Virus record (IMG/VR): IMGVR_UViG_3300021963_003656
Span: 1 to 22,519 of that record
Length of the DNA: 22,519 nucleotides
Reading direction: 5' to 3' (one strand)
From: a virus
Position numbers and translations under genes: made by a program. The notes beneath the pieces are model-generated. The model made no database searches. It saw nothing but the letters and a program-made list of their open reading frames with translations, and was not told where the DNA came from. How positions within the stretch are numbered: position 1 is the first letter of the stretch; each line of letters begins with the position of its first letter. Below are positions 3,293 to 19,647 of the stretch, piece by piece.

Positions 3293-3928
3293 TTAACTGT
3301 CAGCGGCAATCGCTTGACGATCTGCAATACGCAATTTGTCCTCAGTCATCAAGGTCTGCATGATCGCTTGGTACTGAGCTTGCCACAAAGGTACACGGTC
3401 GTCATTCTTGAGGAACGGCATAGCCTGTAGGAGTGATCCGTACAGCAAAGCCTGTGGGGCGTAGATGGTAAACCAATTGGTTTGGTTGGAGCTGTCCAAA
3501 GGCTGTACACGCTCGTAGTACAAGACCTCAAAGTCGTACGCTACCGCAGGCGTAGGAGCAACAAGCCAATGGGTGTAGTCGTAGTCGCAGTAGTACTTGG
3601 GGACGTCTGTGGAGGTGGGGTTAGGCCAGTACTCGCGCAAATACTCATACTTGCGAAGCAACACTGGCTGGCGCTCCCCAGCTACTGTGACGTTCATAGA
3701 AACCGTTTTGTGCCAACGAGCTGGCTTGTCAATGGTTGCCTGACCAATGGTCATTGTGCTGGTGTTAACTGTCAGGTTGCCCAAGAACTTGATCTCGGCG
3801 GCGATGACCTGCTCAGCCAGCATGATAAATAGGGGGATCTTGTCCAACGTGGAGGCGTCATTACGCTCCAAATAGGATTGGATGTTCTCGACCAAACTGT
3901 CATAGGTCATAACACTTGCGGTCGTCAT
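3293..3928 (-). CDS. Head-tail adaptor, SU10-type, 211 aa
   Basis: Adaptor proteins form the ring below the portal in short-tailed phages. The sequence has the family layout: an N-terminal helical half (TYDSLVENIQSYLERND, then LAEQVIAAEIKFLG), a central beta part (KPARWHKTVSMNVTV, LLRKYEYLREYWPNP), the hallmark YYERVQPLDSSNQTNWF, and a C-terminal helical part (YAPQALLYGSLLQAMPFLKN). I recognise this as the SU10 adaptor family from memory; length fits. The ATG at 3928 is preceded by GAGG seven bases upstream. The gene follows the holin after a 58-base gap and leads a packed group with the fibre-like and nozzle-like genes, as expected for head-tail completion proteins. A second adaptor-like protein lies at 18577-19647; how the two divide the role is unclear. 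Confidence 0.65.
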   Translation of the reverse strand: MTTASVMTYDSLVENIQSYLERNDASTLDKIPLFIMLAEQVIAAEIKFLGNLTVNTSTMTIGQATIDKPARWHKTVSMNVTVAGERQPVLLRKYEYLREYWPNPTSTDVPKYYCDYDYTHWLVAPTPAVAYDFEVLYYERVQPLDSSNQTNWFTIYAPQALLYGSLLQAMPFLKNDDRVPLWQAQYQAIMQTLMTEDKLRIADRQAIAADS

Positions 3929-5492: not shown

Positions 5493-5690
5493 CTACAGAC
5501 CCAAAATCTTTTTGACGAACTCGCCAGCGACGCCGGGGCCGAACAGCACGCAGATCATCACCGCATACAAGAGGTACTCAATCTTCGTCATGCGCTTGTC
5601 CCCATCTCGCAAAGAACGATCTATACTGTTATAACGCTCTAAGCAGACTGCTTCGTGCACAGCTAACCTCTTATCAACTTCATCGCTCAT
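5493..5690 (-). CDS. Small single-TM protein, haemolysin XhlA-like layout, 65 aa
   Basis: The N-terminal 37 residues are charged and predicted helical (MSDEVDKRLAVHEAVCLERY, then SLRDGDKRMTKIEY). They are followed by one hydrophobic segment (about 38-56, LLYAVMICVLFGPGVAG) and a short Lys-containing tail (EFVKKILGL). This layout of an amphipathic helix followed by a C-terminal TM is that of XhlA-like phage proteins found near endolysins. The gene overlaps the end of hldD by 11 bases and is followed two bases later by the 30-aa mini-gene. It marks the junction between the sugar cassette and the lysis cassette. A role in lysis is inferred from position and topology only. Confidence 0.6.
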   Translation of the reverse strand: MSDEVDKRLAVHEAVCLERYNSIDRSLRDGDKRMTKIEYLLYAVMICVLFGPGVAGEFVKKILGL

Positions 5691-6450
5691 TTTTCAGGGT
5701 CGCCTTGATCTTGGTTAAATCGGCTTGGGTGAACTTTTGATACCCAGACTTCAAGTCTTCTGGCATCGGAATTGTTTCTATTTTCGCTGGTATTTCAGTG
5801 CTTGCCAAGTGGGCAACTTCTGCAAATGATATTGCTTTTCCAGTACCCACGTTCCAAATGCCAGATTCTTTTATTTTGAAGAACTTCTTGTGGATGCTGA
5901 TCACCTCATCCACATGGATAAAGTCTCTCTTAAACTGATCACTACCCTCAAAGATCTTGATCACACCAGTCTTAGCCTGCTCACGGAACTTATGAAAAGG
6001 TGAAGCCTGATCGCCTTTGTGATCCTCGTGATCGCCGTACACATTGAAGTAGCGAAAGATCTGTACAGGCGACTCTGGGCGCATGTCATGAAAGTAGCCC
6101 TCTACATACGCCTTAGACTTGGCGTAGAGGTTGGCTGGGGCTACGAGGTCAGTTTCCTTAAACGTCGTGTTGTGGGGGCCATACACCGACGCGGAGGAGG
6201 CTATCTGAAGAGGTATGCCGTACTTCTGACACCGCTCCATCAAGGTAATGGAATAACCCACGTTTTGCTTGCGAAGAGCTGACCAATCATCACAGCGGGT
6301 ATCAGAAATCGCCCCAAGGTGGATGACTCGATCTATTCCGTAAAGGGAATACTCATCACCCAAGTCACACAGGTCTAGCTCGTGCTCAGACAAGGCTTTG
6401 ACCATGTTCTGACCAATAAAGCCCTTGTAACCTGTAATTAAGATACGCAT
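5680..6450 (-). CDS. hldD: ADP-L-glycero-D-manno-heptose 6-epimerase (HldD), 256 aa
   Basis: HldD converts ADP-D-glycero-D-manno-heptose to the L-glycero form used in LPS core. The Rossmann start MRILITGYKGFIGQNMV carries the NAD(P)-binding GxxGFIG pattern. The catalytic Ser lies in ASSASVYG and the Tyr/Lys pair in NLYAKSKAYVE (YxxxK). HldD-specific blocks are clear: FRYFNVYGDHEDHKGDQAS, IFEGSDQFKRDFIHVDEV, IWNVGTGKAISFAEVA and YQKFTQADLTKIKATL match the E. coli enzyme in order as I remember it. It is shorter than the usual 310 aa, mainly through a compact N-terminal half and loss of the last 25 or so residues. I start at 6450, where GGAG precedes the ATG, instead of 6471. It overlaps the kinase gene by 13 bases. 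Confidence 0.85.
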   Translation of the reverse strand: MRILITGYKGFIGQNMVKALSEHELDLCDLGDEYSLYGIDRVIHLGAISDTRCDDWSALRKQNVGYSITLMERCQKYGIPLQIASSASVYGPHNTTFKETDLVAPANLYAKSKAYVEGYFHDMRPESPVQIFRYFNVYGDHEDHKGDQASPFHKFREQAKTGVIKIFEGSDQFKRDFIHVDEVISIHKKFFKIKESGIWNVGTGKAISFAEVAHLASTEIPAKIETIPMPEDLKSGYQKFTQADLTKIKATLKNER

Positions 6451-7151
6451 ACAGCTCCAATGCTTTGGCAAGATATTGCCGCTTTCTCGTTGGCAAACGG
6501 CAAGGCTATGCCCATATCGCCCGTCTCTAGGTGCTTGACCACCATAGCCGCTAGGAACACGTCTCCAGCGCCACAGACATCGACCACCTCAATAGGCTTT
6601 GCAAAATAGACCTTGTCCATGTAGCCACAGCCCTTAGAGCCATAGGTAACAATCAGATGTTCTGGCTCAGGCAGTGAGGTAGAGTCGTACAGTTCGCGTT
6701 GGTTGATCTTGATGTAGATGTCAGGGTAGTCTGCCAAGTTGCGCTTCTTGGTGTCCATGTAGATAGGGCCCTTAAACTGGTGCCTAAGCTCCTTGATCGT
6801 CTTAACCCATACATAACCTTTGTTGTAGTCAGAGATCACAATAGCATCAAAGTCTTGCAGGGGAACGCTGAAATCGTACGGCTGGGCTTCTACGTCCTGA
6901 TCCACCCTAAGTAGATGTTCACCAGTTCTTCGATCAATGTAGCGGATCTTGCGGGAGAGCTCTTCACTGACGCACAGCGTTACTTCTGCACCAAAAGCCT
7001 TTAGGTTCTGAGCTACGTTAAACGCCATGCCCATCTTCTCTTCGCTGTTTTCAAAATTTAGAAGCGGTGCAGTAGACTCAGGGTTTACCCTTTTTATCTC
7101 ACCGTACCTGTACTCGTCTATACAGGCATCACCAATTACTAGGATGTGCAT
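6438..7151 (-). CDS. rfaE1: D-glycero-beta-D-manno-heptose-7-phosphate kinase-like PfkB protein, short form
   Basis: In the ADP-heptose pathway this kinase phosphorylates C1 of heptose 7-phosphate. The protein matches the N-terminal domain of bifunctional HldE: GDACIDEYRYGEIKRVNPES at the start, KMGMAFNVAQNLKAFGAEV, ISDYNKGYV, then the PfkB signature VVDVCGAGDVFLAAMV with the catalytic Asp of GAGD intact. At 237 aa it is shorter than the usual 310 or so. The gap falls after GAEVTLCVSEE, where a stretch of roughly 30 residues present in HldE is missing before RKIRYIDRRTGEHLLRVD, and the C-terminal end is also trimmed. Whether it keeps heptose specificity is uncertain. It overlaps the cupin gene by 13 bases and is followed by hldD, as expected for a pathway operon. 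Confidence 0.75.
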   Translation of the reverse strand: MHILVIGDACIDEYRYGEIKRVNPESTAPLLNFENSEEKMGMAFNVAQNLKAFGAEVTLCVSEELSRKIRYIDRRTGEHLLRVDQDVEAQPYDFSVPLQDFDAIVISDYNKGYVWVKTIKELRHQFKGPIYMDTKKRNLADYPDIYIKINQRELYDSTSLPEPEHLIVTYGSKGCGYMDKVYFAKPIEVVDVCGAGDVFLAAMVVKHLETGDMGIALPFANEKAAISCQSIGAVCVS

Positions 7152-7501
7152 TGGCTGTCTCCTGTTTCAACTCTGTAGTTATCCTCCACCGAGTCAGCAG
7201 TTGAGACTTCCAAGATCACACCTGATGCTAGGCAAACTAGCTGGTGGGGAAGTAGTGGTGGGTTGTGCCATGTGTCCCCAATGTTGAGGATCTTTTCGTG
7301 GCGGCTGGCATCTTTGGTGTCTATGTAGATGACCTTAAATAAACCATTTTGGACTAGCCAAGTCTCATCTTTCTCGGCATGAAAGTGCATGGAAAACTTA
7401 GCACCCTGACGGAAAGTCATCAGCTTCCCGCAGTACTTGTCATTGGTAGCCCAGATTAGCTCCGACCCCCAGCCCTTCTTTACGATACCCTTGAGTTGCA
7501 T
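7139..7501 (-). CDS. Cupin-fold sugar-cassette protein, 120 aa
   Basis: This is a single-domain cupin resembling the small cupins related to type II mannose-6-phosphate isomerase that are found in LPS and capsule clusters. The pattern KKGWGSELIWATNDKYCGK leads to SMHFHAEKDETW, which supplies the metal-binding HxH and Glu of cupin motif 1; GDTWHNPPLLPHQLV supplies motif 2 with its His. It is likely a metal-dependent isomerase, epimerase or binding protein acting on a phosphosugar or sugar nucleotide, but the substrate is not readable. The ATG at 7501 has AAGGAT six bases upstream. The start lies 62 bases inside the rfaE2 frame, an unusually long overlap for this operon. Its position between the two halves of a split HldE ties it to heptose metabolism. 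Confidence 0.7.
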   Translation of the reverse strand: MQLKGIVKKGWGSELIWATNDKYCGKLMTFRQGAKFSMHFHAEKDETWLVQNGLFKVIYIDTKDASRHEKILNIGDTWHNPPLLPHQLVCLASGVILEVSTADSVEDNYRVETGDSQCTS

Positions 7502-7871
7502 TGATTATCCTTGTTGATGAATAGCCATCTAGGAAAGGAATGATAACTGTCTGTTTGACCAAGGTGAACCCAACAACCTGCTCAGGCTTGTAATCCCCGC
7601 CTTTTGTAATGATGTCAGGCTTGATTCTGTGGATTAACTGCAACGGTGTAGGCTCATCAAAGATGATAACTTCATCTACCCAACGAAGCGCCAGCAACAC
7701 AGCCATGCGGTCATCTTGGGAATTGATGGGTCTGCCGGGCTTTAGTTCCCGTACAGACGCATCTGAGTTTAAACCTACGATTAGCTTGCTACCCAATGCC
7801 TTGGATTTCTCCAGATACTCAACGTGCCCACGGTGGAGCACATCAAAGCATCCGTTGGTAAAGACAATCAC
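7440..7871 (-). CDS. rfaE2: D-beta-D-heptose 1-phosphate adenylyltransferase (HldE C-domain), 143 aa
   Basis: RfaE2 adenylates heptose 1-phosphate to ADP-heptose. The cytidylyltransferase fold starts with VFTNGCFDVLHRGHVEYL (HxGH at residues 13-16), followed by KLIVGLNSDASVRELK, RPINSQDDRMAVLLAL, the diagnostic TKGGDYKPEQVVG and the C-terminal GYSSTRII, all in the order of the HldE C-terminal domain. The start codon is GTG at 7871, overlapping the upstream TGA as GTGA. The last 20 or so residues, after RIINAT, have no counterpart in HldE as I remember it and are coded within the 62-base overlap with the cupin gene. All catalytic motifs are intact. In most enterobacteria this domain is fused to the kinase; here they are separate and in inverse order. 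Confidence 0.88.
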   Translation of the reverse strand: MIVFTNGCFDVLHRGHVEYLEKSKALGSKLIVGLNSDASVRELKPGRPINSQDDRMAVLLALRWVDEVIIFDEPTPLQLIHRIKPDIITKGGDYKPEQVVGFTLVKQTVIIPFLDGYSSTRIINATQGYRKEGLGVGANLGYQ

Positions 7872-8653
7872 ACACCCATCTCTTTGCGTATTTTAGTAGC
7901 AGAGATAGCGTGGGTAGCATCGTCAAAAGATTCCTGCTCAATCTTGTAGCCAACATCGCGCCCATAGGTAATGTTGACAATGTTAGGAACCAATTGAACC
8001 TCGTACTGACCTTGGTACAAAGGGTCTAGATCACGGCTAATAAACTCTTTGACCTGATTGGCGGCAAACGGGTTGGAGCCGTTCCAGCCTTGGCAGTCTC
8101 TGATCTGGATCACTACCTGACCAGTCTTAGCTAACGCCCGTTCAAACAGCTTACGGTGGCCTTCATGCCACGGTTGCCATCTGCCAAGCATCTGGACTGT
8201 TTCTTTTTGCCAGTCAAACACAGGGCGGCGGCGGTCATCCAAGATGTGCGCGGCAATGAACTCACCCCACTTCTCAGACTTCTGCTCAGTGATCCTGAAG
8301 TCATATTCCTTGGGAGGAATAAATACCTTGTTGGTATCCTCAAAGCGACCTTGGTCGATGGTGTCAACCCAGATAGTCCAGTCAGCCTTGAAGTTGTTAC
8401 GCATCTCCACAAGGGGAGCAACAAAGTCGCAGATCACATAGTCAACATCGTAGCTGTCAGCCAACTCGCGCATCCGTAGGCTCTGGCGAATACGCCCTTC
8501 GTGGGAGAAGTCCCAGTCGTTGTACTTCTTACGAACATCATCAGCATTCAACCACATGACCGTCTTGCGTTCAGCTTGCAAGTGGTCGAGGATGTGTTGC
8601 GCTAGGTATGTCTTACCCGCTCCGGGAAGACCCATCACCAAGATGCGTTTCAT
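7868..8653 (-). CDS. APS-kinase-like/nucleotidyltransferase fusion, 261 aa
   Basis: The N-terminal domain (about 1-125) is a P-loop kinase of the APS-kinase (CysC) type: GLPGAGKTYLAQ at residues 8-19, LNADDVRKKYNDWDFSHEGR at about 35-53 and ICDFVAPLVEMR at 74-85. The C-terminal domain (about 150-261) is a small HxGH nucleotidyltransferase: LGRWQPWHEGHRKLF (His163, His166) and a terminal ISATKIRKEM replacing the usual ISSTxIR. One reading is a PAPS-forming enzyme that could feed the sulfotransferase domain encoded upstream, but the C-domain looks more like NadM-type transferases than ATP sulfurylase. Another is a CysC-like kinase plus cytidylyltransferase as in Campylobacter phosphoramidate capsule synthesis, which also accompanies heptose. 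Substrates cannot be decided. The ATG at 8653 has AAGGGG upstream. Confidence 0.72.
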   Translation of the reverse strand: MKRILVMGLPGAGKTYLAQHILDHLQAERKTVMWLNADDVRKKYNDWDFSHEGRIRQSLRMRELADSYDVDYVICDFVAPLVEMRNNFKADWTIWVDTIDQGRFEDTNKVFIPPKEYDFRITEQKSEKWGEFIAAHILDDRRRPVFDWQKETVQMLGRWQPWHEGHRKLFERALAKTGQVVIQIRDCQGWNGSNPFAANQVKEFISRDLDPLYQGQYEVQLVPNIVNITYGRDVGYKIEQESFDDATHAISATKIRKEMGV

Positions 8654-8663
8654 TCGTTACCCC

Positions 8664-9074
8664 TTACAGCAAAGCGTCGAGTTGATCGTGAGTCGTAGCG
8701 GCATCAATAGCGGCTTGTTTGGTCAACATAGCCTGACGCGCTGTCTCTACTGCTGTAGCATCGTACTGCTCGTTAGCGTTAGGAGAAAGCTGTAGGCGGG
8801 ACTGCTCCATCACCACTTGCTGGAATGAAAAACCTGCGTTGGACTTCATACCGTTTTTGCGGTCAGCCACGGAGATTTCGTATGTGTCCCAAATGATCTG
8901 CACTGGATCAGTGTTTAGATCAAACCGGTGGGCGGTGTAGCCCTGACGGTGTGCTGTGATTGCAGGACGAACTTCCACAGCGTTGCGCCAGCCGTTATTG
9001 CCTACGCCTTCTGCGGGAGGTGTGTCCCAGACTTGTTTGACCTCACCATTGAGGACTTGAACGAAATGTGTCAT
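8664..9074 (-). CDS. Small tail-associated protein, possible fibre chaperone, 136 aa
   Basis: The gene directly follows the last propeller gene after 25 bases and has a strong AAGGAG six bases before its ATG. The first 65 residues form a compact domain (THFVQVLNGEVKQVWDTPPA, RNAVEVRPAITAHRQGYTAH, DPVQIIWDTYEISVADRKNG). The rest is predicted helical (FQQVVMEQSRLQLSPNANEQ, ARQAMLTKQAAIDAATTHDQ). This N-domain-plus-helical-tail layout, and its place straight after receptor-binding genes, resembles small tail-fibre assembly proteins of other phages. No specific family signature was recognised, so the chaperone role is a guess from position and layout. Confidence 0.5.
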   Translation of the reverse strand: MTHFVQVLNGEVKQVWDTPPAEGVGNNGWRNAVEVRPAITAHRQGYTAHRFDLNTDPVQIIWDTYEISVADRKNGMKSNAGFSFQQVVMEQSRLQLSPNANEQYDATAVETARQAMLTKQAAIDAATTHDQLDALL

Positions 9075-9099: not shown

Positions 9100-10272
9100 T
9101 TAAGATGCTGTGGCAATAAAGCCTGCGTTTGAAGAACCATAAGGTGTGCTATTTATCAAATACCAATTAGTCAAAGAACCAACTTGTTGAGGCGTTGAAA
9201 ACGCATAAGTTGTATTTCCTATTCCTAATTGACCGTAATTATTCTGACCCCAAGTCCACAAAGTTCCATCAGTTTTGACGGAAGCTGAAGAATAATTAGA
9301 ACCAGCTACACGCAACCAAGTTGTTAAAGAGCCAACTTGAATTGGAGATGATTTATTGACTGTTGTCCCATCGCCAAGTTGCCCTTGACCGTTGTAGCCC
9401 CACGACCATAAAGTGCCATTTGTCTTAACTGCTAGACCTGCGGCGGCTCCTGTTCCAACAGTAGCCCAAGTTGTCAAAGCGCCAATTTGCTTAGGTGAAG
9501 AGTAATAGGTTGTGTTTCCAAGTCCGAGCCTTCCAGAAGCTCCATTACCCCATGCCCACAAAGTTCCATCTGTTTTAACAGCAAAAGCAAGGTATCTACC
9601 ACCAACAATTTTTAACCAATTAGTCAGCGCCCCAACTTGTTTTGGAGATGAATATACTGTTTCGTTGCCAAGTCCTAAAGCACCTCGGGTATTTGAACCC
9701 CAACTCCACAGCGTCCCATCTGTTTTAATGGCATACGAAGAACCAACAGCGCCACAAGATATTGAACTCCAATTAGTTAGAGAACCTACTTGGATTGGTG
9801 AATTTTTATCAACATTTGTTCCATCACCAAGCTGTCCAGAACCATTGTTACCCCAAGCCCACAATGTGCCATTAGTTTTAAGCGCCATCATTGTGCTTTG
9901 ACCAATACTAATAGCAGACCAATTAGTCAGAGCGCCTACCTGTTTGGGAGAAGAGTAAGCAGTTGCATTACCTAATCCTAATTGCCCAGCACTTGAAGCA
10001 CCCCAAGTCCACAGTGTTCCGTCTAACCGAACTGCTCCTGAAGCACTTGTTCCTCTTGCAATTGCAATCCATTTTTCAGCACCAATTTGCACTGGCGATG
10101 ATCTATCTGTTGTAGTGCCATCCCCAATCATGCCTGAAGCATTAACACCCCATCCAAGTAAATTGTACAAAATTGGCGGCACAGGCCAAGTCCCCGCCGC
10201 CTTAGCATTGGCTTGACTGCTGATGTTCCAGATACCTGAGTATTGAACGCCTGTGACTACTGTTACTGCCAT
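9100..10272 (-). CDS. RCC1-repeat seven-bladed propeller, type A, copy 2, 390 aa
   Basis: After an N-terminal tag (GVQYSGIWNISSQANAKAAG, ending TWPVPP) the protein is a chain of seven RCC1-like repeats of about 50 residues. Each is marked by a W-G motif: LLGWGVNASG, LWTWGASSAG, LWAWGNNGSG, LWSWGSNTRG, LWAWGNGASG, LWSWGYNGQG, LWTWGQNNYG. Seven repeats predict a closed beta-propeller. Loops after the motif come in two versions, GNTTYYSSPKQIG and GDGTTTDRSSPVQIG; this copy has several of the second. There is no signal peptide or TM. The tag resembles short motifs at the ends of phage tail proteins, so a virion adhesin or receptor-binding role is inferred. The gene starts three bases after copy 2 of type B and is poorer in G+C than the enzyme genes around it. 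Confidence 0.85.
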   Translation of the reverse strand: MAVTVVTGVQYSGIWNISSQANAKAAGTWPVPPILYNLLGWGVNASGMIGDGTTTDRSSPVQIGAEKWIAIARGTSASGAVRLDGTLWTWGASSAGQLGLGNATAYSSPKQVGALTNWSAISIGQSTMMALKTNGTLWAWGNNGSGQLGDGTNVDKNSPIQVGSLTNWSSISCGAVGSSYAIKTDGTLWSWGSNTRGALGLGNETVYSSPKQVGALTNWLKIVGGRYLAFAVKTDGTLWAWGNGASGRLGLGNTTYYSSPKQIGALTTWATVGTGAAAGLAVKTNGTLWSWGYNGQGQLGDGTTVNKSSPIQVGSLTTWLRVAGSNYSSASVKTDGTLWTWGQNNYGQLGIGNTTYAFSTPQQVGSLTNWYLINSTPYGSSNAGFIATAS

Positions 10273-10275
10273 GAT

Positions 10276-11424
10276 TTATCCTAGTGCCAGTACTGTATAA
10301 AATCCTGCGGCGGCAGTTAACCATTGGTTTAATGCACCAAGTTGTTTTGGCGATGAATAACTTGTTGTATTTCCAAGCCCAAGTTGCCCAGAACTGTTAG
10401 CGCCCCAAACCCACAATGTGCCATCAGTTTTAATTGACGCAACATTGTTTCTTCCTGCAAATGCAACACTCCAATTTGTAGAAGAGCCTACTTGTTTTGG
10501 AGATGAATAATAGGTTGTGTTACCCAATCCCAATTGACCGCTTGCATTAACTCCCCAAGACCACAATGTTCCATCAGTTTTTGTGGCTAAAGAAAAATAA
10601 TTACCACCATTTGTTGCTTTTGACCAATTAGTCAATGCACCCACTTGTTTTGGAGAGGAATAATAAGTTGTATTGCCTAAGCCTAATTGACCGTAAGGAT
10701 TACCGCCCCAAGACCATAAAGTTCCGTCAGTTTTAACTCCTAAAACAAATACCGGATTACTTGCAGGAATAGCAATAGTTGCCCAATTGGTTAAAGCACC
10801 AATTTGTTTGGGTGAAGAATAGTTGGTTGTGTTGTTAAAACCAAGTTGCCCAAAACCATTTCCACCCCAGCCCCATAATGTGCCATTTGTTTTAATGGCC
10901 ATGGCCCAATTTCCACCAGTTTGTACATTTAACCAGTTTGTAAGCGCACCAACTTGTTTTGGTGAAGAATAGTTTGTTGTGTTGCCAAGCCCTAAACTTC
11001 CATAAAAATTTCTACCCCAAGCCCACAAAGTTCCATCTGTTTTAATTGCGGCAGTCATTGGTTGATTGTTGCCATAAGAACTAGTTGAAACTTGTTTCCA
11101 TGTGGTTAAAGCACCAACTTGTTTAGGACTAGAATAATAAGTTGTAGTGCCTAAACCAAGTTGACCATAAATATTATTTCCCCATGTCCACAATGTTCCA
11201 TCTGTTTTAATAGAAGCACTTGTTGCATATCCAGTTGAAACTTGTAACCAGTCGGTCAAACTGCCAACAGCTTTTGGAGATGAGTATGCAGTAGTATTTC
11301 CTAAACCAAGTTGTCCATAATTACTACTACCCCAACTATACAAGTTGTAATAAGTGGTAGAGGTCTGTGCCGCCAGCGGATTAAACCCCGGCTTGTTGAT
11401 GCCAGCGGCATATCTAAAGCTCAC
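10276..11424 (-). CDS. RCC1-repeat seven-bladed propeller, type B, copy 2, 382 aa
   Basis: The start codon is GTG at 11424, overlapping the TGA of the transferase fusion as GTGA, with a strong GAGGAG six bases upstream. The tag AAGINKPGFNPLAAQTSTTY differs from the type A tag and matches the other type B protein. Seven repeats follow (LYSWGSSNYG, LWTWGNNIYG, LWAWGRNFYG, LWGWGGNGFG, LWSWGGNPYG, LWSWGVNASG, LWVWGANSSG), each with a Ser/Thr/Tyr-rich loop such as GNTTYYSSPKQVG. The prediction is a seven-bladed propeller displayed through the N-terminal tag. Eukaryotic RCC1 is a chromatin-bound Ran exchange factor; nothing suggests that activity here. The close pairing with type A implies the two assemble together or serve as alternatives. 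Confidence 0.85.
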   Translation of the reverse strand: MSFRYAAGINKPGFNPLAAQTSTTYYNLYSWGSSNYGQLGLGNTTAYSSPKAVGSLTDWLQVSTGYATSASIKTDGTLWTWGNNIYGQLGLGTTTYYSSPKQVGALTTWKQVSTSSYGNNQPMTAAIKTDGTLWAWGRNFYGSLGLGNTTNYSSPKQVGALTNWLNVQTGGNWAMAIKTNGTLWGWGGNGFGQLGFNNTTNYSSPKQIGALTNWATIAIPASNPVFVLGVKTDGTLWSWGGNPYGQLGLGNTTYYSSPKQVGALTNWSKATNGGNYFSLATKTDGTLWSWGVNASGQLGLGNTTYYSSPKQVGSSTNWSVAFAGRNNVASIKTDGTLWVWGANSSGQLGLGNTTSYSSPKQLGALNQWLTAAAGFYTVLALG

Positions 11425-13190
11425 GCTACACTCCTCAATGCTGGCTTAGAACCAACACGCTCTTTGATCTTGTCAAACGGGGCAGTCCAATCACCATAGA
11501 CTTCCTGTCTAAACAGTCTCATGCTGTCGTAGTACGGCGTTTTGTCACCGTCAATGGAATAGAGGTAGTATGGCATGATAGGTGTGACGACCCATGTTTC
11601 TACGCCCATTGCCGCCGCCAAATGGCTAACGCTCGTACAGGCTGAGATAACTATATCGCAACTAGCCACTGCTTGTCGAGTGTCTTCCCAAGTATTAAGC
11701 GGTACTTGTTTTACCCAAGCTGGGCAAGCATCTGAACCCTCGTCACGCTGTAAAGAAACGAACTCTGCGTCAGCATCTTTTACCGCATCAAACATCAGAT
11801 CGTAGGGGAAGCGTTTATGATGTTCATGTTCGAATTTACTGTTGCCCTGCCAACGCAGACCGATGCGTTTCTTACGCCCTTTGATTGACATTGGCTTCTC
11901 AAGGTATGGTGCACCAGACAGGTCACGCAACTCTAACCCCAAAGGAACCACAGCAGACATACCAGCAACCCAGAAGTCGTGGTAGATACCAAAGGTAGCC
12001 TCGTGCTGGACAACGGCTGAAACGCCTTCTACGCCTTGAAACAATGATGCAAGTGGCCCAGTGCAAGACACCACCACTTTACAGCCACGCTCTGCAATCA
12101 GCTTGGCATAGCGAATCTGGTGAATCTGATCGCCCAGACCGCCTTCCAGATACAGCATGACCGTACCCTTTGTCTTGCCATCCCACTGGGGTGTAGGCAC
12201 ATCAGGGCGTGAGTTACCAAAGACACCTACGATTCGTCCTCTGTCCATCAAGCCATAGCCCTTTTGGATTTGACCTTGACGCAAGTAATACCAGCCACGG
12301 TTATAGGCGGCTCGGTGGTTGTTAGGCTCTTCAGCTTCTAACTTCTGAGCTAGTCTCCAGCCCTCAGCAAAGTCACCCATTGTGGATGCGGCTAACTGTA
12401 GGTCTAGGTCATGCAACTCAGGAACTGTGCGTGGGCGCTCAAGCCAAAACTCTGGCTGGCAGAAAGCTGAGTAGTGGTGCTTCAGCAGATCGCGGGGGTC
12501 TTGCTTGTGCTGTGCCGCCAATACAGGTTTGACATCGTGCATCCCTGCGTGACCGTGCAAGTTCTCGTCATCTTCAGCCACTGTTGAGCCGTCGATGTTG
12601 TTGAAGTCGTAGGCAAAATCAGGCAAACCCAAGAACTCATGGATACGGGCTAACTGCGCTTTGGGGTCAGCTAACAGGTCTTCGTATTCAACGAACAGGA
12701 AGTTTTCTGGTGCGTACTCGTAGCCGTTCTGGAGGGAGATGTAAGCGGCGCGGAGGTGATCCATCAGTTGACCAGTCGCCATGAACTCGTCTAGGTCTGT
12801 GGGTTTGGCTACACGGATAAAGCTGGCGGCGCAGTCAGGAACTGAACGGACTGTAGCGATGATCTTAGGCTGACGGCCTAGCACCTGTGACATAGCACCC
12901 ATGATCTGACCGATAGGCCAGCCACGGGACTTGTCGATGATGACGGGCTTGTCGGTGTCTTCGTAGAACGCATCAATTGCACCGCGCATGGTCTGCGCTA
13001 ACTTGTTTCTCTCAGGGTCATTCTCGTTCAATAAACCCGCTGAGTGCCAAGTATTCGCAAGTCCATCAAGGGCGTGGACAAGCCCAGATGTGGTGGATAC
13101 ATGGGTCATCGGATTTTGGTTCAGGATAGCCGCAAGGACTGTCGAGCCAGAACGAGGAATGCCAGAGAGGAAGTGCAGTGTTTTGTTCAT
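11421..13190 (-). CDS. Sulfotransferase-TPR-glycosyltransferase (GT9-like) fusion, 589 aa
   Basis: Residues 1-250 are a PAPS-type sulfotransferase: FLSGIPRSGSTVLA carries the 5'-phosphosulfate loop (10-17), KIIATVRSVPDCAASFIRV the 3'-phosphate site (about 109-127), and FVEYEDLLADP is typical. Residues 275-320 look like TPR helices (EGWRLAQKLEAEEPNNHRAA, YLRQGQIQKGYGLM). Residues 343-570 form a GT-B half related to ADP-heptosyltransferases and TPR-linked glycosyltransferases: LYLEGGLGDQIHQIRYAKL (GLGD at 351-354), RIGLRWQGNSKFEHEHHKRF, and CDIVISACTSVSHLAAAMG with the conserved His523. Both halves look intact. The gene overlaps a propeller gene by four bases on each side. TPR-linked members often modify proteins, so glycosylation and sulfation of the flanking propellers is plausible; modification of host surface glycan is the alternative. 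Confidence 0.82.
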   Translation of the reverse strand: MNKTLHFLSGIPRSGSTVLAAILNQNPMTHVSTTSGLVHALDGLANTWHSAGLLNENDPERNKLAQTMRGAIDAFYEDTDKPVIIDKSRGWPIGQIMGAMSQVLGRQPKIIATVRSVPDCAASFIRVAKPTDLDEFMATGQLMDHLRAAYISLQNGYEYAPENFLFVEYEDLLADPKAQLARIHEFLGLPDFAYDFNNIDGSTVAEDDENLHGHAGMHDVKPVLAAQHKQDPRDLLKHHYSAFCQPEFWLERPRTVPELHDLDLQLAASTMGDFAEGWRLAQKLEAEEPNNHRAAYNRGWYYLRQGQIQKGYGLMDRGRIVGVFGNSRPDVPTPQWDGKTKGTVMLYLEGGLGDQIHQIRYAKLIAERGCKVVVSCTGPLASLFQGVEGVSAVVQHEATFGIYHDFWVAGMSAVVPLGLELRDLSGAPYLEKPMSIKGRKKRIGLRWQGNSKFEHEHHKRFPYDLMFDAVKDADAEFVSLQRDEGSDACPAWVKQVPLNTWEDTRQAVASCDIVISACTSVSHLAAAMGVETWVVTPIMPYYLYSIDGDKTPYYDSMRLFRQEVYGDWTAPFDKIKERVGSKPALRSVA

Positions 13191-14344
13191 GTGTTTTTAG
13201 TTGTTACTGTATGGTAATTTCCAGAAGCAATGTTAAGCCATGTGGTTAAACTACCGACTTGATTAGGGCTAGAACGATAAGTTGTGTTGCCTAAACCAAG
13301 TTGTCCGTAATTATTTTTTCCCCAAGCCCACAAAGTTCCATCCGTTTTTGTGGAAATTGTAAAAGACAAACCGCAAGCAACCTTTGACCATAAAGTACCA
13401 GCACCGATTTGTTTAGGCGATGAATAATTTGTGGTGTTACCAAGTCCTAATTGACCAAAATTATTTAGACCCCATGACCAGATAGTCCCATCAGTTTTAA
13501 TTGCAAAACTATCGCAATACCCAGTAGACACCTTGAGCCATGTAGTCAAAGAACCAATTTGTTTAGGGCTGGAGTAATAGGTTGTGTTGCCCAAACCCAA
13601 ACCACCAGCGTAATTATTACCCCATGACCACAATGTTCCATTAGATTGGATTGCTTGGGAATTGTTAAAACCAGCTTCTAAATCAACCCACGAAGTTAAA
13701 GCGCCAATTTGAACAGGAGATGATCGAGGTGTTAAATCATTTAAACCTAAACGACCACTTGAATTGCTACCCCAAGACCAAAGGGTTCCATCTGTTTTTA
13801 ACGCTATAACATGTGAATCACCAACGGCAACATTTGCCCAATCAGTTAATGATCCAATTTGTTTTGGGGAAGAGTAATAAGTCGTATTGCCAAGACCCAA
13901 TTTACCTGATTGACCATTTCCCCACGACCAGATGGTTCCATTGGTTTTGATGGCAACACAAGAATATGATCCTGCTGAAATTTTTAACCAGTTTGTCAAA
14001 GCGCCAACTTGTTTTGGGCTGGAATATTCTGTGGTGTTACCTAAGCCAAGCTGACCACTTCCATTGCGACCCCACGACCACAATGTTCCGTCTAATTTAA
14101 TTGCAACAGTAAAAGCGCCACCGCCAGAAATGCTGGCCCATGTAATTAAAGAGCCAACTTGCTTAGGCGAAGAGTAATAAGTAACATTGTTTAAACCTAG
14201 TTGACCGCCATAGTTAGCGCCCCATGAATACAAAGCAGGCCCCGGTGGGCTAGGCCAAGTCCCAGCCGCAATAGCGGCATTCACCTGTTGCATTGTCCAG
14301 ATGCCTGAATATTGAACGCCTGAAACTGTTGTTACGACTGGCAT
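13187..14344 (-). CDS. RCC1-repeat seven-bladed propeller, type A, copy 1, 385 aa
   Basis: The type A tag is GVQYSGIWTMQQVNAAIAAG followed by TWPSPPGP (about residues 9-37), shared with the 390-aa copy. The seven repeats are LYSWGANYGG, LWSWGRNGSG, IWSWGNGQSG, LWSWGSNSSG, LWSWGNNYAG, IWSWGLNNFG and LWAWGKNNYG. Most loops are of the GNTTYYSSPKQ kind, with one variant (NDLTPRSSPVQIG). The ATG at 14344 lies six bases after the type B stop, and the TGA overlaps the ATG of the transferase fusion, so the fusion gene is probably translated by coupling from this one; it has no clear Shine-Dalgarno of its own. Function is inferred to be virion surface display, with the tag as anchor. Confidence 0.85.
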   Translation of the reverse strand: MPVVTTVSGVQYSGIWTMQQVNAAIAAGTWPSPPGPALYSWGANYGGQLGLNNVTYYSSPKQVGSLITWASISGGGAFTVAIKLDGTLWSWGRNGSGQLGLGNTTEYSSPKQVGALTNWLKISAGSYSCVAIKTNGTIWSWGNGQSGKLGLGNTTYYSSPKQIGSLTDWANVAVGDSHVIALKTDGTLWSWGSNSSGRLGLNDLTPRSSPVQIGALTSWVDLEAGFNNSQAIQSNGTLWSWGNNYAGGLGLGNTTYYSSPKQIGSLTTWLKVSTGYCDSFAIKTDGTIWSWGLNNFGQLGLGNTTNYSSPKQIGAGTLWSKVACGLSFTISTKTDGTLWAWGKNNYGQLGLGNTTYRSSPNQVGSLTTWLNIASGNYHTVTTKNT

Positions 14345-14350
14345 GATTTT

Positions 14351-15493
14351 TTAATATAAAAGAGCAATTGTAGAAGCTCTACTTGTAGCAACATTTATCC
14401 AAGTAGTTCCTGAACCAATTTGCTTGGGTGATGAAGATGAACTTGTATTTCCTTGACCCAACTGCCCATTGTTATTTCTACCCCAAGACCAAATAGTTCC
14501 CGAAGTTTGTACAGCAGAAAAGAAATAACTACCGCCTGCAACTTTTAACCAATTTGTTAATCCACCAACTTGTTTTGGAGAAGAGTAATAGGTCGTATTG
14601 TTTAAACCGAGTTGACCATAAGAATTTGCGCCCCACGCCCACAATGTTCCGTCTGTTTTTATAGCGCATGTTGCAGAAGAGGCACATGCGGCACTTGACC
14701 AAGTTGTCAATGCACCAACTTGTGTTGGTGAAGATTTGTAAGTTACATTGTTAATACCTAATTGACCATAGGCATTAAAACCCCAAGCCCATAATGTTCC
14801 ATTTGTTTGGGTAACTAATATGTGATTGGCACTACTACCACTTGCCATGTTAGACCAAGTGGTTAATGCTCCAACTTGTTTAGGGGATGAATAATAAGTG
14901 GTATTACCTAAACCTAAATTTCCAAAAGCGTTATATCCCCAAGCCCACAAAGTACCGTCAGTCTTGATAGCATAAGAACAATTTTGGCTACCAGCAACAT
15001 TTGCCCAAGTTGTTCCAGAACCAATTTGTTTTGGACTTGAATATGCGGTTGTATTACCTAAACCCAACTGACCTTGTGCATTAAAACCCCATGACCAAAG
15101 CGTACCATCAGATCGAATTGCTAAAATAAATTGATAGCCATTAGAAACTTTTGACCATGTAGTTAAAGATCCTACTTGTTTGGGTGAGGAGTAGGATGTT
15201 GTATTACCTAGACCAAGTTGTCCATTTGCGTTATATCCCCAAGCCCACAAAGTACCGTCTGTTTTAATGGCACTTGTAGTTGCATATCCAGCAGAAATGC
15301 TTAACCAATCTGTTAGTGAACCAACTTGATTTGGTGAAGAATAATAAGTGGTATTGTTTAACCCAAGTTGACCTCTAATATTATTACCCCAAGTGTACAA
15401 ATATGGGTAATAAGTCGTAGTCGTAGTTTGGGTAGCCAGCGGATTAAACCCCGGCTTAACAATACTCCCCGGAAACATTTGTCTTATAGACAT
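14351..15493 (-). CDS. RCC1-repeat seven-bladed propeller, type B, copy 1, 380 aa
   Basis: The first of the four propeller genes to be transcribed, 12 bases after the small structural gene at 15506. The type B tag MSIRQMFPGSIVKPGFNPLA resembles short N-terminal tags of other phage structural proteins. Seven repeats follow: LYTWGNNIRG, LWAWGYNANG, LWSWGFNAQG, LWAWGYNAFG, LWAWGFNAYG, LWAWGANSYG and IWSWGRNNNG. Loops are mostly GNTTSYSSPKQVG-like. Residues that differ between blades lie mostly between repeat motifs (for example NGYQFILAIRS against GSQNCSYAIKT), as expected for a shared scaffold with varied faces. No catalytic motif was seen. Role as adhesin or receptor-binding head is inferred. 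Confidence 0.85.
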   Translation of the reverse strand: MSIRQMFPGSIVKPGFNPLATQTTTTTYYPYLYTWGNNIRGQLGLNNTTYYSSPNQVGSLTDWLSISAGYATTSAIKTDGTLWAWGYNANGQLGLGNTTSYSSPKQVGSLTTWSKVSNGYQFILAIRSDGTLWSWGFNAQGQLGLGNTTAYSSPKQIGSGTTWANVAGSQNCSYAIKTDGTLWAWGYNAFGNLGLGNTTYYSSPKQVGALTTWSNMASGSSANHILVTQTNGTLWAWGFNAYGQLGINNVTYKSSPTQVGALTTWSSAACASSATCAIKTDGTLWAWGANSYGQLGLNNTTYYSSPKQVGGLTNWLKVAGGSYFFSAVQTSGTIWSWGRNNNGQLGQGNTSSSSSPKQIGSGTTWINVATSRASTIALLY

Positions 15494-15505: not shown

Positions 15506-15883
15506 TCAGCTTTGGATGGATTCGTAGCTGATCGTGTAAGTGATACCACTTGATGTACCAGAAGTCACCACAATGGATGAGTTCTCCATCAGGTACACCG
15601 CCGTAGTCTTATCCACCGCGATCACAGATGCACTGGCAGGCACTGAAATAGTAGAGATGATTGGGTAGTTTGTACCTGCGCCAGCGGCGGCATTGTTGAT
15701 TGCAACCGTGGCGTTCACAGCACTTGAGCCATTCACATTAGCACATACGATTTGGTTGATCTTGTAGACCAAGCCAGAAGATGCGGCATTAGACAGCAGA
15801 GTGTTAGCTGTTGTATTGCCGGGTGTTAAATACGTTGTATTACCTGTGATGGTCGTAACGTTAACAATATTTGGATTTGCCAT
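15506..15883 (-). CDS. Small beta-rich phage structural protein, 125 aa
   Basis: A compact Ser/Thr/Ala-rich beta protein with the pattern MANPNIVNVTTITGNTTYLT, KINQIVCANVNGSSAVNATV, TISVPASASVIAVDKTTAVY, LMENSSIVVTSG and a final YTISYESIQ. Proteins of this layout are common in the tail-gene regions of environmental phages and are taken to be virion components; I know of no defined role. The ATG at 15883 has AAGGAAC at good spacing and follows the previous stop by nine bases. It lies between a fibre-associated small gene and the first propeller gene, so it may belong to the appendage carrying the propellers. Confidence 0.6.
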   Translation of the reverse strand: MANPNIVNVTTITGNTTYLTPGNTTANTLLSNAASSGLVYKINQIVCANVNGSSAVNATVAINNAAAGAGTNYPIISTISVPASASVIAVDKTTAVYLMENSSIVVTSGTSSGITYTISYESIQS

Positions 15884-15892
15884 GATAGTTCC

Positions 15893-16273
15893 TTACAGAC
15901 CGAATACGATTGAAAAAGCGATTGCTTGACCCTTGGTAGCACCAGTGGCCGCAGGTGTAGTTGATTGCCACGTTGTACCGTTTGATGTCAAAACATTACC
16001 AGCCGTGCCGGGGGCAACCGCCTGCAAAGCAGAGGTTCCGTTACCCAACAGCACGTTGTTTGCCGTCAGTGTCGTAGAACCAGTTCCACCAGCCGAGACT
16101 GGGGTTGTTTTCCACGCAATAACTTGAACATTGCTAGAGCTGTCTTTGTAGAAGAGTTTACCGTCAGCAGTGTTGATTGCCAACTCCCCAGCGGCGAGAT
16201 TTCCTGACGTTGGTGCATTGGTTGTTGTAGCGCTGTAGTAGAGCTGAATTGGGGTGTAGCCTGCTTGTGCCAT
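15893..16273 (-). CDS. Small tail-fibre-associated protein, 126 aa
   Basis: The start is the ATG at 16273, which overlaps the upstream stop as TAATG and has GGAGGAA at the right distance; an upstream in-frame ATG at 16327 would overlap the 651-aa gene and adds an odd Trp/Arg-rich stretch. The N-terminus QAGYTPIQLYYSATTTNAPT and the motif AAGELAINTADGKLFYKDSS are typical of phage fibre and tail-tip proteins, where the latter forms a small beta unit. A second unit (AGGTGSTTLTANNVLLGNGT) matches repeat units in the 651-aa protein just upstream. It is probably an accessory or tip piece of the same fibre. Confidence 0.62.
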   Translation of the reverse strand: MAQAGYTPIQLYYSATTTNAPTSGNLAAGELAINTADGKLFYKDSSSNVQVIAWKTTPVSAGGTGSTTLTANNVLLGNGTSALQAVAPGTAGNVLTSNGTTWQSTTPAATGATKGQAIAFSIVFGL

Positions 16274-18228
16274 TAGAAAGTTCCTCCAGATATTCCACCT
16301 GTGATTGCGCCTGTAGATGGATTGCAAGTAATTGATGAATTCACCAATTGTCCCAAATTACCAGTTGTTGCGCTAACAAAAGTTAAGTAATTTGTTGCAT
16401 TTGTTGAATCGGCTGTGATCGCTGTGTTTGTGGCGTTTGTAGCATTGGTCGCAGAGCCAACAGACAAAGTGCTTTGAGCTACATACTGAGGCGCAGAAGC
16501 GCCAGCGGTCAGGACATAGTTGGTTGTACCAATAGCCAACTTAGACAGAGCGGTAGTGCCAGACGCATACAGCAAGTCACCAGCGGTGTAAGAGGTCAGG
16601 TTTGTACCACCATTGGCGACACCCAATGTGCCAGCCAGCGTCACAGCGCCCGTCGTGCCAGTGCTTGGGGTAAATCCAGTCGTGCCTGCGCTAAACGATG
16701 TCACGCCGCCTGCTGGCGCCGCAGACCATGTCGCTGTTGTACCGTTGGATGTCAACAGGTAACCATTAGAGCCAATCGGCAATCTTGTAGCGCTGTTTGT
16801 GCCGTTACCAATGATCAGGTCACCAGTTGTGGTGATAGGCGATAAAGCATTAAACGCCGCGCCTGCTGTTGTCTGTCCAGTACCACCAGAGCCAATTGCA
16901 AGGGTAGCTGACAAACCAGCCGCAGTGCCTGTGGTGTTCTGATTCCATGTAGGAATAGCGCCAGCCAAGTCTGCGTAAGCAATACTTACTGCACCCGTCT
17001 GGCCATTGACTGAGCTGACCAAGTTGGTTTGATCAATCTTTTGCCAAGCTGTACCGTTGAATATTGCCCAGTCACCTACTTGCCAGTCAGTGATACCGTC
17101 AAGATTCGTTGTGCCAGCTACTGAGACAACGTAGTAGTAACCGTTTGTTCCGACACCAGATGCAAGCGTAGGCGTGTTAGTCGAGGCATTCCAAGAGCCC
17201 TGATACACCAAACCACCAGTTATGGCGGCGGTTGTCACACCTGTGATCACGCCCTTGGCGTTCACGGTGATCACTGGGATCGCTGTGGTCGAGCCGTAGG
17301 TGTTAGCAGTTACGCCAGACGCAGGCAAGTCAGCATTGACCATTGCACGGAAACTAGGCGTACCAGCAGAGCCGTTAGGCGACGCAAGCATGTAGTTTGC
17401 TGTCTGGGATGCCCAAGCCGCTGTTAAGTCGCCTGTAGACGTAACTGGTGAGTTTGTGACGGTAAAGTCGCTTGGCATTACTAAGCCAACAGAGGTTACG
17501 CCAGTACCCGTAGTGATCGCACCCCATGCGTTGTTTGCATAGCCTTCAAACGTAGCTGTCGTTGTGTTGTAGCGAAGCTCACCGTTGTTTGCTGGAGAGG
17601 GACGCTCAGCGGTTGTACCGACGGGGAGGGTCACGCCCTCGATGCCGGGGAGCACCGCGTTGCTGGCAATCGCAAACGTAGGATTACCAGAAGCGCCGTT
17701 TCCGTTCGTGACCGTGATCTGATTCGCCGTACCCGTAAGGTCACGACCAGCAACCGTCGTCCCGCCACCAGTCATGGCAAGCATACCCGTGCCAGACAAG
17801 TTAGCTACCGAAGCGGCAACACCTGTCAATTGGAATGTTGGGTTGCCTGATACGCCGTTGCCATTGGTAACGCTTAAACCGCTTCCAGACGTCGATAAGG
17901 TGCGTCCTGTTACCGATCCACTAGACTTGGCAATAATCCCGTCAGAAGACGTTTCAAGGCTTCCTGAGACCCCATTCAAGGTGATCTGAAGCGTAGACTG
18001 GGCGCCACCGTCAACCAAACCAACACCTGTACCGCTAGAAAGCGCTCTGCTGTTAGTCAGAGTAGGTTCTTGGTTCTTTGTGATGAACGTCTGAGTCTGA
18101 ACGGGAGAACCCGCAAGCGCGGCAGTCGTTGTCTGTACGGTCTGACCATTCTGAACGATAGGGACAGCTTCTGTACCAGTAATCGCACCAGCGGCAGGTA
18201 ATTGTGTGATCGTTACTTGTGCGGACAT
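16273..18228 (-). CDS. Tail fibre-like protein with short beta repeats, 651 aa
   Basis: The protein is dominated by Gly, Ser, Thr, Ala and Asn and is built from short beta repeats known from phage fibres. The unit LSVTNGNGVSGNPTFQL recurs as ITVTNGNGASGNPTFAI, and the unit TTGDLIIGNGTNSATRLPIG recurs as AGDLLYASGTTALSKLAIG. The segment VGTTAERPSPANNGELRYNT, followed by FEGYANNAWG, is a widespread phage fibre motif. The N-terminus MSAQVTITQLPAAGAITGTE is a typical attachment tag. The C-terminus ends GAITGGISGGTF, echoed in the 414-aa fibre-like protein. No enzymatic domain is visible. Residue order suggests a trimeric fibre shaft. The ATG at 18228 follows the previous stop by one base. Confidence 0.75.
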   Translation of the reverse strand: MSAQVTITQLPAAGAITGTEAVPIVQNGQTVQTTTAALAGSPVQTQTFITKNQEPTLTNSRALSSGTGVGLVDGGAQSTLQITLNGVSGSLETSSDGIIAKSSGSVTGRTLSTSGSGLSVTNGNGVSGNPTFQLTGVAASVANLSGTGMLAMTGGGTTVAGRDLTGTANQITVTNGNGASGNPTFAIASNAVLPGIEGVTLPVGTTAERPSPANNGELRYNTTTATFEGYANNAWGAITTGTGVTSVGLVMPSDFTVTNSPVTSTGDLTAAWASQTANYMLASPNGSAGTPSFRAMVNADLPASGVTANTYGSTTAIPVITVNAKGVITGVTTAAITGGLVYQGSWNASTNTPTLASGVGTNGYYYVVSVAGTTNLDGITDWQVGDWAIFNGTAWQKIDQTNLVSSVNGQTGAVSIAYADLAGAIPTWNQNTTGTAAGLSATLAIGSGGTGQTTAGAAFNALSPITTTGDLIIGNGTNSATRLPIGSNGYLLTSNGTTATWSAAPAGGVTSFSAGTTGFTPSTGTTGAVTLAGTLGVANGGTNLTSYTAGDLLYASGTTALSKLAIGTTNYVLTAGASAPQYVAQSTLSVGSATNATNATNTAITADSTNATNYLTFVSATTGNLGQLVNSSITCNPSTGAITGGISGGTF

Positions 18229-18229: not shown

Positions 18230-18577
18230 TTATGGGCTCAGTTGGTCTAGGTTGCCGTTGTTCTCAGGATCCTGAGTGTTACCCTCTGTCGAGATGATAA
18301 AGCTACCACCAGTGATACCGTTTTGGGTAGTGACAATGTTGTTGTCATTGGCGGCGACGCTCACGTCAGGACGCGGGAATCTGATCGTTATTCTCTCAGT
18401 TTTTCGGGCTGGAAGTCTATAGGGATCTTTCTCATCGGCACAGCCTTGTCCACAGACTTGCAAGCCGGGGAAGTTCGGATCAGGTCTCATCTGGTCGTGG
18501 TCGCGCTTCATCTTGCAACGATCACAGATTGCTATCGATAAAGTAGCATTTCCACGAGTGTCCAGAAAGATAGGCAT
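18230..18577 (-). CDS. Small CxxC zinc-ribbon-like phage protein, 115 aa
   Basis: The N-terminal half has two cysteine pairs, CDRC and CGQGC, about 20 residues apart, which could bind one zinc ion (ICDRCKMKRDHDQMRPDPNF, then GLQVCGQGCADEKDPYRLP). The phrase DEKDPYRLPARKTERITIRF followed by PRPDVSVA is a conserved block in short-tailed phage genomes next to head-tail genes, in my recollection, with unknown function. The C-terminal part carries NGITGGSFIIST, the same GGSF pattern that ends two fibre-like proteins here. The start ATG overlaps the stop of the adaptor-like gene as TAATG. Confidence 0.6.
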   Translation of the reverse strand: MPIFLDTRGNATLSIAICDRCKMKRDHDQMRPDPNFPGLQVCGQGCADEKDPYRLPARKTERITIRFPRPDVSVAANDNNIVTTQNGITGGSFIISTEGNTQDPENNGNLDQLSP

Positions 18578-19647
18578 TATCTTGTGTACACAGAAATGTT
18601 AGGTGCAAAGTAGATCGGAGACTTGTCACGCTCTTCCTGCTCCACTTCGTTCAAGTACTTCTCGGCTTGACCTTCAAGGTACTGGATACGAGCCAGATCA
18701 ACGCCGGGCAACTCTAGCGCCATCCTGTGCGACAACATCATCAAGGTCGCCTCGTACCACCGTGTTGGGATGTACAGCTCGTCAGTCAAAGCGCCAACGT
18801 CCATGATCTGTTTGCTGTACCACACAGTGATCTGCACAAATGGGTCGCTGGGGACGGGCCACAAGTACAGCGTAGGCAGAGGAATCGTGCGATCAAACCA
18901 GAATTGGAAGGGCTGGTTAGCCGTAAAGTTCTTGTTTGGCAGGTTTGTGTAGTCGTCGCGGTTTAGGCGAGACATTGTGATCTCGGTGGAGTTGTTGCCC
19001 ACGTAAAACTCACGCAAAGCCAGCGTTGTGCCGTTGGAAGCACGTACGCGGTAGTACTGGACGTCTTGACCGGGGTTGATATCCGTCCAAATCCACTGGT
19101 TATCCGTCACAGCCACCGATCCAAGGCTCTCAAGCGTCGACCAAGTGCTGTTATCTGTTGAGTACTCTAGCGTCAACGTCCATGTGGCGCTTCCGCCCCC
19201 TGCTATGTACGGCAGGAGACCAATGGAGCCAGCATAGATGGCTTGGTTTGTACCAAAGTTGGCTGAAATGTTGCCGTTTGCACTGGTTTGCAGGCAGAAC
19301 GTGTCCACGTCGTTGTCGCCTACGTTGGCAACAGTACCACCCGCGGAGCTTGAGTAGCTTGCACTAGGGCGGCTCATGGTGCGATAGAGCACGTTTAGAG
19401 CGTCGTTTGCACCCACGGGTAGGCTGTATATGTAATTGTTCGCAGAAACGCCCAAAACGACCTTGTCGATGGCGAAATACTGGATACCTATGTTGATCAA
19501 GCGTTGAAGCAAGAAGCCAAGCGACTGACGAGCGGACACAAGTTGCTCAGAGGTCAACTCTTCGGCTAATTTGCCTGCGCGTCTCGCACCATGATCGATC
19601 AAGGTTTGGACGTTAACTGTCTGACCGTATGTATCTGAGTACGCCAT
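18577..19647 (-). CDS. Adaptor/tail tubular protein A-like with inserted beta-sandwich, 356 aa
   Basis: The N-terminal helical part (NVQTLIDHGARRAGKLAEEL, VSARQSLGFLLQRLINIGI) and the C-terminal part (MSRLNRDDYTNLPNKNF, LPTLYLWPVPSDPFVQITVW, RWYEATLMMLSHRMALELPG) together follow the layout of head-tail adaptor proteins (P22 gp4/T7 gp11 type) as I remember it. Between them, at about residues 93-220, sits a beta-sandwich resembling an F5/8-type C (discoidin) domain: GDNDVDTFCLQT, SATWTLTLEYSTDNSTWSTL, VQYYRVRASNGTTLALREFY. Such a domain often binds carbohydrate. The ATG at 19647 has AAGGAAC upstream. It is the first large tail gene after the capsid block. Adaptor identity is moderately sure. 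Confidence 0.62.
   Translation of the reverse strand: MAYSDTYGQTVNVQTLIDHGARRAGKLAEELTSEQLVSARQSLGFLLQRLINIGIQYFAIDKVVLGVSANNYIYSLPVGANDALNVLYRTMSRPSASYSSSAGGTVANVGDNDVDTFCLQTSANGNISANFGTNQAIYAGSIGLLPYIAGGGSATWTLTLEYSTDNSTWSTLESLGSVAVTDNQWIWTDINPGQDVQYYRVRASNGTTLALREFYVGNNSTEITMSRLNRDDYTNLPNKNFTANQPFQFWFDRTIPLPTLYLWPVPSDPFVQITVWYSKQIMDVGALTDELYIPTRWYEATLMMLSHRMALELPGVDLARIQYLEGQAEKYLNEVEQEERDKSPIYFAPNISVYTR

Follow-up and report, generated by a model that had tools for sequence, protein, structure and literature searches.

The viral record IMGVR_UViG_3300021963_003656, a genome fragment of a freshwater phage analysed here as one stretch of 22,519 nt (the window), carries on its minus strand a cassette of four RCC1-type propeller genes flanking a transferase gene (ST), in the order B1-A1-ST-B2-A2. 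Comparison with related viral sequences indicates that a short N-terminal peptide marks each propeller with one of four position-specific addresses, and that the propeller behind it (the head) has been replaced repeatedly among phages. With heads replaced and their presumed seats kept, as many as four different heads could be present on one virion. The cassette probably serves a tailed phage as a multi-head adhesin kit, in which four addresses are combined with exchangeable heads and a putative modifying enzyme lies between the pairs. The relatives used for comparison are nearly all metagenomic and many are fragments, and close contigs were weeded out only by means of simple sequence keys.

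A preliminary description of this DNA had reported the same internal gene order on both sides of the transferase, an overlap of four bases at each of its borders, four propellers, and the same pair of N-terminal tags in both modules. All of these features were recovered (Table 1). A1 and ST overlap by ATGA at 13187-13190 and ST and B2 by GTGA at 11421-11424, while the gaps within the pairs measure 6 nt (B1/A1) and 3 nt (B2/A2). The four propeller open reading frames (ORFs) are intact and match PF00415/PF25390 at 1e-63 or better as well as phrog_4219, with 28 RCC1 repeats, seven in each protein, all above the family cut-off. The tags are 63% identical between B1 and B2 and 56% between A1 and A2, against 18-22% between the B and A types, and a 23-bp run, aagccggggtttaatccgctggc, is identical in B1 and B2.

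Evidence for addresses comes from the 21 phages that have the full layout with all four genes, which provide 84 tags and 84 propellers. The nearest tag from another phage occupied the same position in 84 of 84 cases, with four distinguishable kinds such as GSIVKPGFNPL (position -2), SGIWTMQQVNAAIAAGTWP (-1), SFRYAAGINKPGFNPL (+1), and SGIWNISSQANAKAAGTWP (+2). Synonymous-site identity of the tags was 0.62-0.79, both within and between modules, and the tags of the two modules were more alike inside one phage than in permuted pairs, in the main clade as well (p 0.03 and 0.01). This likeness fits recombination through the tags, although constraint at the DNA level and shared descent would also produce some of it. 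In one relative (L298), the B1 tag is fused in frame to the A1 tag with a single propeller behind them, its DNA being near both tags of the window. The possibility that tags also sit on non-propeller proteins was discarded, as an RCC1 motif was present in all 110 distinct KPGFNP-tagged ORFs, a set drawn partly from loci picked for ST or propellers and partly from a DNA-pattern scan made without such selection.

The heads do not follow the tags. The nearest neighbour of a propeller occupied the same position in only 30 of 84 cases, compared with 21 expected by permutation (77 of 2000 shuffles reached 30), and mean propeller identity was 57.5-58.4% in every comparison class. When the window was compared at the DNA level with four close relatives (L089, L090, L092, and L093), the tags were 88-100% identical, ST 89-91%, p125 86-90%, and p136 93-95%, whereas the propellers were 67-71% identical (one 81%), which equals the 67-72% found among the window's own four propellers; in a sliding comparison, identity drops at the end of the tag. 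Cross-comparison of propellers (a k-mer prefilter followed by alignment) detected near-identical heads behind unlike tags. The B1 propeller of L094 and the B2 propeller of L093 are 91% identical, their likeness beginning past the tag, and further cases include B1/B2 (85% and 81%) and A1/B1 (82%). Heads are also shared with composite-tag proteins (A1/composite 86.5%, B1/composite 87%). In the modular receptor-binding proteins of tailed phages, a conserved anchor at the N-terminus is combined with an exchangeable C-terminal part, and the same division is found here.

At the junction between ST and the downstream propeller, several relatives carry GIY-YIG and/or NUMOD3 homing-endonuclease-like ORFs, which are absent from the window; such ORFs could promote recombination there. 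Furthermore, a fibronectin-III-like stretch, recognized by eye, lies between tag and propeller in L100, L105, and L121 (+2), in L101 (+1), and in L131 and L149.

These observations bear on the proposal that a module was duplicated around the enzyme. In its simplest form, a B-A pair would have been copied around ST, after which the four proteins diverged where they stood and every propeller was inherited together with its tag. The identical internal order, the synonymous states shared by the tags of the two modules, and the greater likeness of tags within one phage are what this history would leave, and so is the quartet likelihood analysis of the four full-length window proteins, in which B1B2|A1A2 was best and both alternatives were rejected (approximately unbiased (AU) test, 0.007 and 0.001); the grouping of B1 with A1 over the full length, named beforehand as evidence against duplication, did not occur. 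Once the tags were removed, the same topology remained best and neither alternative was rejected (AU 0.054 and 0.153). Most of the signal for this pairing resides in the tags. Across phages, propellers fail to follow tags, near-identical propellers stand behind unlike tags, and heads about 30% different in DNA lie beside genes differing by 5-14%, by which simple duplication is refuted for the heads. Recent propeller duplication was likewise ruled out by synonymous sites in the blades, which are near saturation (identity 0.34-0.43 against 0.32 expected). Simple duplication is thus an unlikely account of the cassette; module duplication holds for the address tags and the layout and fails for the propellers, whose identity stays near 58% whichever class is compared. 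Similarly, the four retained heads of the preliminary description are indeed diverged and kept at fixed positions, but they cannot be traced as copies of each other.

The same description left a choice between a mixed appendage and alternative receptor-binding heads, of which a mixed appendage appears more likely, given the intact ORFs and the probable coupling of A to B. A Shine-Dalgarno-like motif precedes B2 in 19 of 21 phages; a strict rule found it before B1 in 5 of 21, where the upstream sequences inspected mostly carry GGGGA, uncounted by that rule. For A1 and A2 the motif occurs in 3 and 7 of 21 phages, respectively, and both genes start a few bases from the end of B, so that translation of A is probably coupled to that of B; this speaks for both heads being displayed at the same time.

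With regard to structure, the B1 protein, the only propeller modelled, was predicted with high confidence to form seven four-stranded blades behind a low-confidence tag and matches UVR8, HERC, and RCC1 structures (template modelling score 0.83-0.87). Among 936 distinct blades, positions 8, 10, 11, 21, 39, and 41-44 are variable and lie in or beside two loops of one side, while the opposite-side loops GALT and TDGT are conserved; the in-strand positions 36, 38, and 45 are also variable. With blade sides assigned by the alternation of antiparallel strands, variation is predicted to fall mainly on one face; on that basis, the tag at the N-terminus would enter from the conserved side.

Hypermutation by a diversity-generating retroelement, instead of exchange, might uncouple heads from tags in a comparable way. 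The commonest residues at the variable blade positions are Tyr, Asn, and Ser, and AGY codons make up 51% of Ser codons at positions 8, 10, 11, 41, and 42 against 17% at other tested positions, as adenine-directed mutation could give; unless a retroelement is involved, this AGY excess is without explanation. However, near-saturated synonymous differences extend throughout the blades, whole heads are common to different tags, and no reverse transcriptase (PF00078) was detected in 22 related records, some of them fragments, on which ground the retroelement was rejected as very improbable.

The association of propellers and ST extends well beyond the window. ST homologues with 76-97% identity occur in viral contigs, and a propeller adjoins ST in 60 of the 61 distinct loci; in the remaining one, L142, many propellers are present at other places of the locus. 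Layouts were classified, approximately, by regular expression in 40 distinct loci with good flanks. The complete B-A|ST|B-A layout was present in 16 of these, and the others included loci where a single protein with a fused B-A tag stands on one side or on both, and a small number with propellers on just one side, while the A-before-B order was not seen among the 40. The adjacency and the recurrence of the full layout argue that the arrangement is not due to chance. The comparison of module numbers that had been suggested showed that a side may hold one propeller, two, or many. Of the two overlaps of ST, the downstream one is conserved, being present in 36 of the 49 loci with a propeller on that side, whereas the upstream one is not (10 of 53). 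The expanded array of L142 (L142:460-17247) comprises eight or more propeller genes. Finally, among 18 relatives of the window's virion protein with at least 15 kb of sequence, 17 are without close ST, propeller, and HldD genes and one has all three, which suggests that these genes are gained and lost as a group.

The ST product would combine two enzymatic activities. Its N-terminal half contains a sulfotransferase domain, and the top fold matches of this half (Foldseek) are the protein-tyrosine sulfotransferases TPST1/2. The loop GIPRSGS for 3'-phosphoadenosine 5'-phosphosulfate (PAPS) and a downstream Arg/Ser pair align with those of TPST2, as expected of PAPS binding, and P12-T17, R115, and S123 are invariant. 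ST differs from TPST1/2 in having only about 20% identity and in being fused to a glycosyltransferase-like half. That C-terminal half shows a GT-B/GT9-type fold on a model of moderate confidence, with matches to TibC (2.9e-5), WaaC (1.4e-4), and WaaF (4.4e-4), as well as OGT and SPINDLY; compared with TibC and WaaC/WaaF, ST shares their fold and, in the window phage, nearby ADP-heptose genes, but it is phage-encoded and joined to a sulfotransferase half and a TPR segment. The TibC subfamily has an iron-binding cysteine motif; the invariant cysteines of the C-terminal half of ST are C376, C511, and C518, with no CxxC among them. The best folds include TPST2 and TibC, both protein-modifying, and from the linkage seen repeatedly across phage groups the propellers emerge as the likeliest substrate or partner of ST.

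Genes downstream of ST were counted in 30 loci with at least 6.5 kb on that side, and some of them may supply its donors. The small protein p136 accompanies ST in all 30 and has no match in Pfam or NCBIfam. The gene with APS-kinase-like (adenosine 5'-phosphosulfate kinase) and NMN-adenylyltransferase-like (nicotinamide mononucleotide) domains is a possible source of PAPS, and the ADP-heptose genes a possible source of the sugar donor. The latter match TIGR02199 (2.8e-49), TIGR02198 (1.1e-30), and TIGR02197 (2.7e-61), though none of these scores reaches the curated equivalog cut-off. HldE in this phage is split over two genes, alongside cupin and HldD-like genes. A complete ADP-heptose pathway was rejected, as no GmhA above the cut-off was present in 22 related records, some of them fragments; the early steps would therefore be those of the host.

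The same genes suggest another role for the enzyme. ST and the sugar genes might modify the host surface, such as lipopolysaccharide (LPS), to block superinfection or change a receptor, the propellers being no more than their neighbours in the operon. In favour of this role, ADP-heptose is a precursor of LPS, the C-terminal half of ST is matched by WaaC and WaaF, and genes for HldE and HldD lie downstream of it. Nevertheless, ST keeps its propeller neighbours also where heptose genes are missing (20 of 30 loci), a separate sulfotransferase and TPR-GT stand beside propellers in two other phage groups, and the top folds of the N-terminal half act on protein tyrosines. A host-surface role is thus rather doubtful, though it deserves more weight than simple duplication.

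Phage RCC1 proteins have also been described elsewhere. Escherichia phage W70 (gp237-239), GAP32 (GAP_001), and 121Q, with its multi-copy arrays (phrog_4219), encode RCC1 propellers, often as adjacent copies as in the window, and those of W70 and GAP32 were identified as virion proteins by mass spectrometry (PMC11370258, PMC5259590). The available text of these two reports mentions neither address tags nor head exchange nor a linked sulfotransferase/glycosyltransferase for such proteins. Based on the annotation family name, and on a remark in PMC11370258 that similar virion proteins are suspected in DNA packaging, the propellers could be internal packaging proteins. Such a function would not lead one to expect strong head variation beside conserved genes, swapping behind tags, or tail-fibre neighbours in named phages, and it is the least probable of the explanations considered. 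In BUCT-ZZ01 the gene order is tail fibre, one short gene, propeller, and TPR-GT. Synechococcus phage S-SRM01 and the marine virus AG-345-E08, resemble the window in combining multiple RCC1 propellers with genes for a TPR-GT and a sulfotransferase, the latter directly following a propeller in both; in S-SRM01 the TPR-GT does so too, and the region lies downstream of baseplate and tail-fibre genes. They differ in that the sulfotransferase and TPR-GT are separate genes, the tags are different or faintly A-like, and B-A pairs are absent. No description of a phage cassette of propellers, sulfotransferase, and heptosyltransferase was found in the literature collection searched.

According to the adhesin-kit explanation, a peptide of 22-31 residues would assign each propeller to position B1, A1, B2, or A2, its simplest role being to dock the protein at a single seat of an appendage on the tail or neck. 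Receptor binding would fall to the seven-bladed head, whose variable face would point away from the anchored one and gives indirect evidence of such binding, and recombination at or near the tags would swap heads while the seats are kept. ST would most likely modify the propellers or their appendage, drawing its donors partly from the downstream APS-kinase-like and ADP-heptose genes. Known modular receptor-binding proteins likewise keep the N-terminus at fixed gene positions and exchange the C-terminus; the window differs in its very short anchor, its four position-specific kinds, and its four propellers in one phage. A more specific version, in which the fused enzyme both sulfates and glycosylates the heads and the four-address code lets them trade between seats and phages with assembly undisturbed, is possible but tentative. 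Several points weigh against the explanation as a whole. Virion location, receptor binding, propeller modification, and docking seats are inferred for this phage, as are the target of the enzyme and the identity of the donor. Moreover, the ST model has a mean confidence (pLDDT) of 75 and a pTM of 0.54, LPS-acting WaaC/WaaF also match its C-terminal half, the face assignment depends on strand alternation instead of coordinates, and linkage of the donor genes is not tight (10 of 30 loci for the ADP-heptose genes, 24 of 30 for the APS-kinase-like homologue). Upstream of the cassette, the window encodes fibre-like proteins at 15506-15883, 15893-16327, and 16273-18228. Also outside the cassette, an SU10-adaptor-like protein (window 18577-19647) has a weak F5/8-type-C match in its middle.

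Table 1. Features of the propeller cassette, its surroundings, and relatives (window coordinates unless a locus is given)
Feature	Coordinates	Strand	Description	Evidence or remark
B1	14351..15493	-	380 aa, B1 address tag + seven-bladed RCC1 propeller	Pfam RCC1; model pLDDT 92; RCC1/UVR8/HERC fold matches
B1 address tag	15428..15493	-	first 22 aa, MSIRQMFPGSIVKPGFNPLATQ	position-specific in 21 phages
A1	13187..14344	-	385 aa, A1 address tag + RCC1 propeller	Pfam RCC1
A1 address tag	14252..14344	-	first 31 aa, ends ...YSGIWTMQQVNAAIAAGTWP	position-specific in 21 phages
ST	11421..13190	-	589 aa, sulfotransferase-like N half, TPR segment, GT9/heptosyltransferase-like C half	PF13469 9e-17; Foldseek; TPST2 alignment
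B2	10276..11424	-	382 aa, B2 address tag + RCC1 propeller; GTG start preceded by GAGGAG	Pfam RCC1
B2 address tag	11359..11424	-	first 22 aa, MSFRYAAGINKPGFNPLAAQTS	position-specific in 21 phages
A2	9100..10272	-	390 aa, A2 address tag + RCC1 propeller	Pfam RCC1
A2 address tag	10183..10272	-	first 30 aa, ends ...YSGIWNISSQANAKAAGTWP	position-specific in 21 phages
p136	8664..9074	-	small protein	with ST in 30/30 loci
APS-kinase-like + NMN-adenylyltransferase-like domains	7868..8653	-	possible PAPS supply	PF01583 2.9e-9
ADP-heptose genes	5680..7871	-	possible sugar-donor supply	
HldE C-domain-like	7440-7871	-		
Cupin	7139-7501	-		
HldE N-domain-like	6438-7151	-		
HldD-like	5680-6471	-		
Virion protein	3293-3928			reference for relatives with at least 15 kb of sequence
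Homing-endonuclease-like ORFs	L094:11776-12330, L098:5533-6159, L125:3827-4432, L149:5474-6181, L100:8657-9421			

If the adhesin-kit explanation is correct, the cassette shows a phage that keeps several recognition heads at once and exchanges them like cassettes, short position-specific peptides doing the seating and a repeat propeller doing the varying. With the tags as a sequence handle, heads of this type could be located in metagenomes, and through the linked sulfotransferase/heptosyltransferase the modification of tail proteins by a phage-encoded enzyme becomes open to direct testing.

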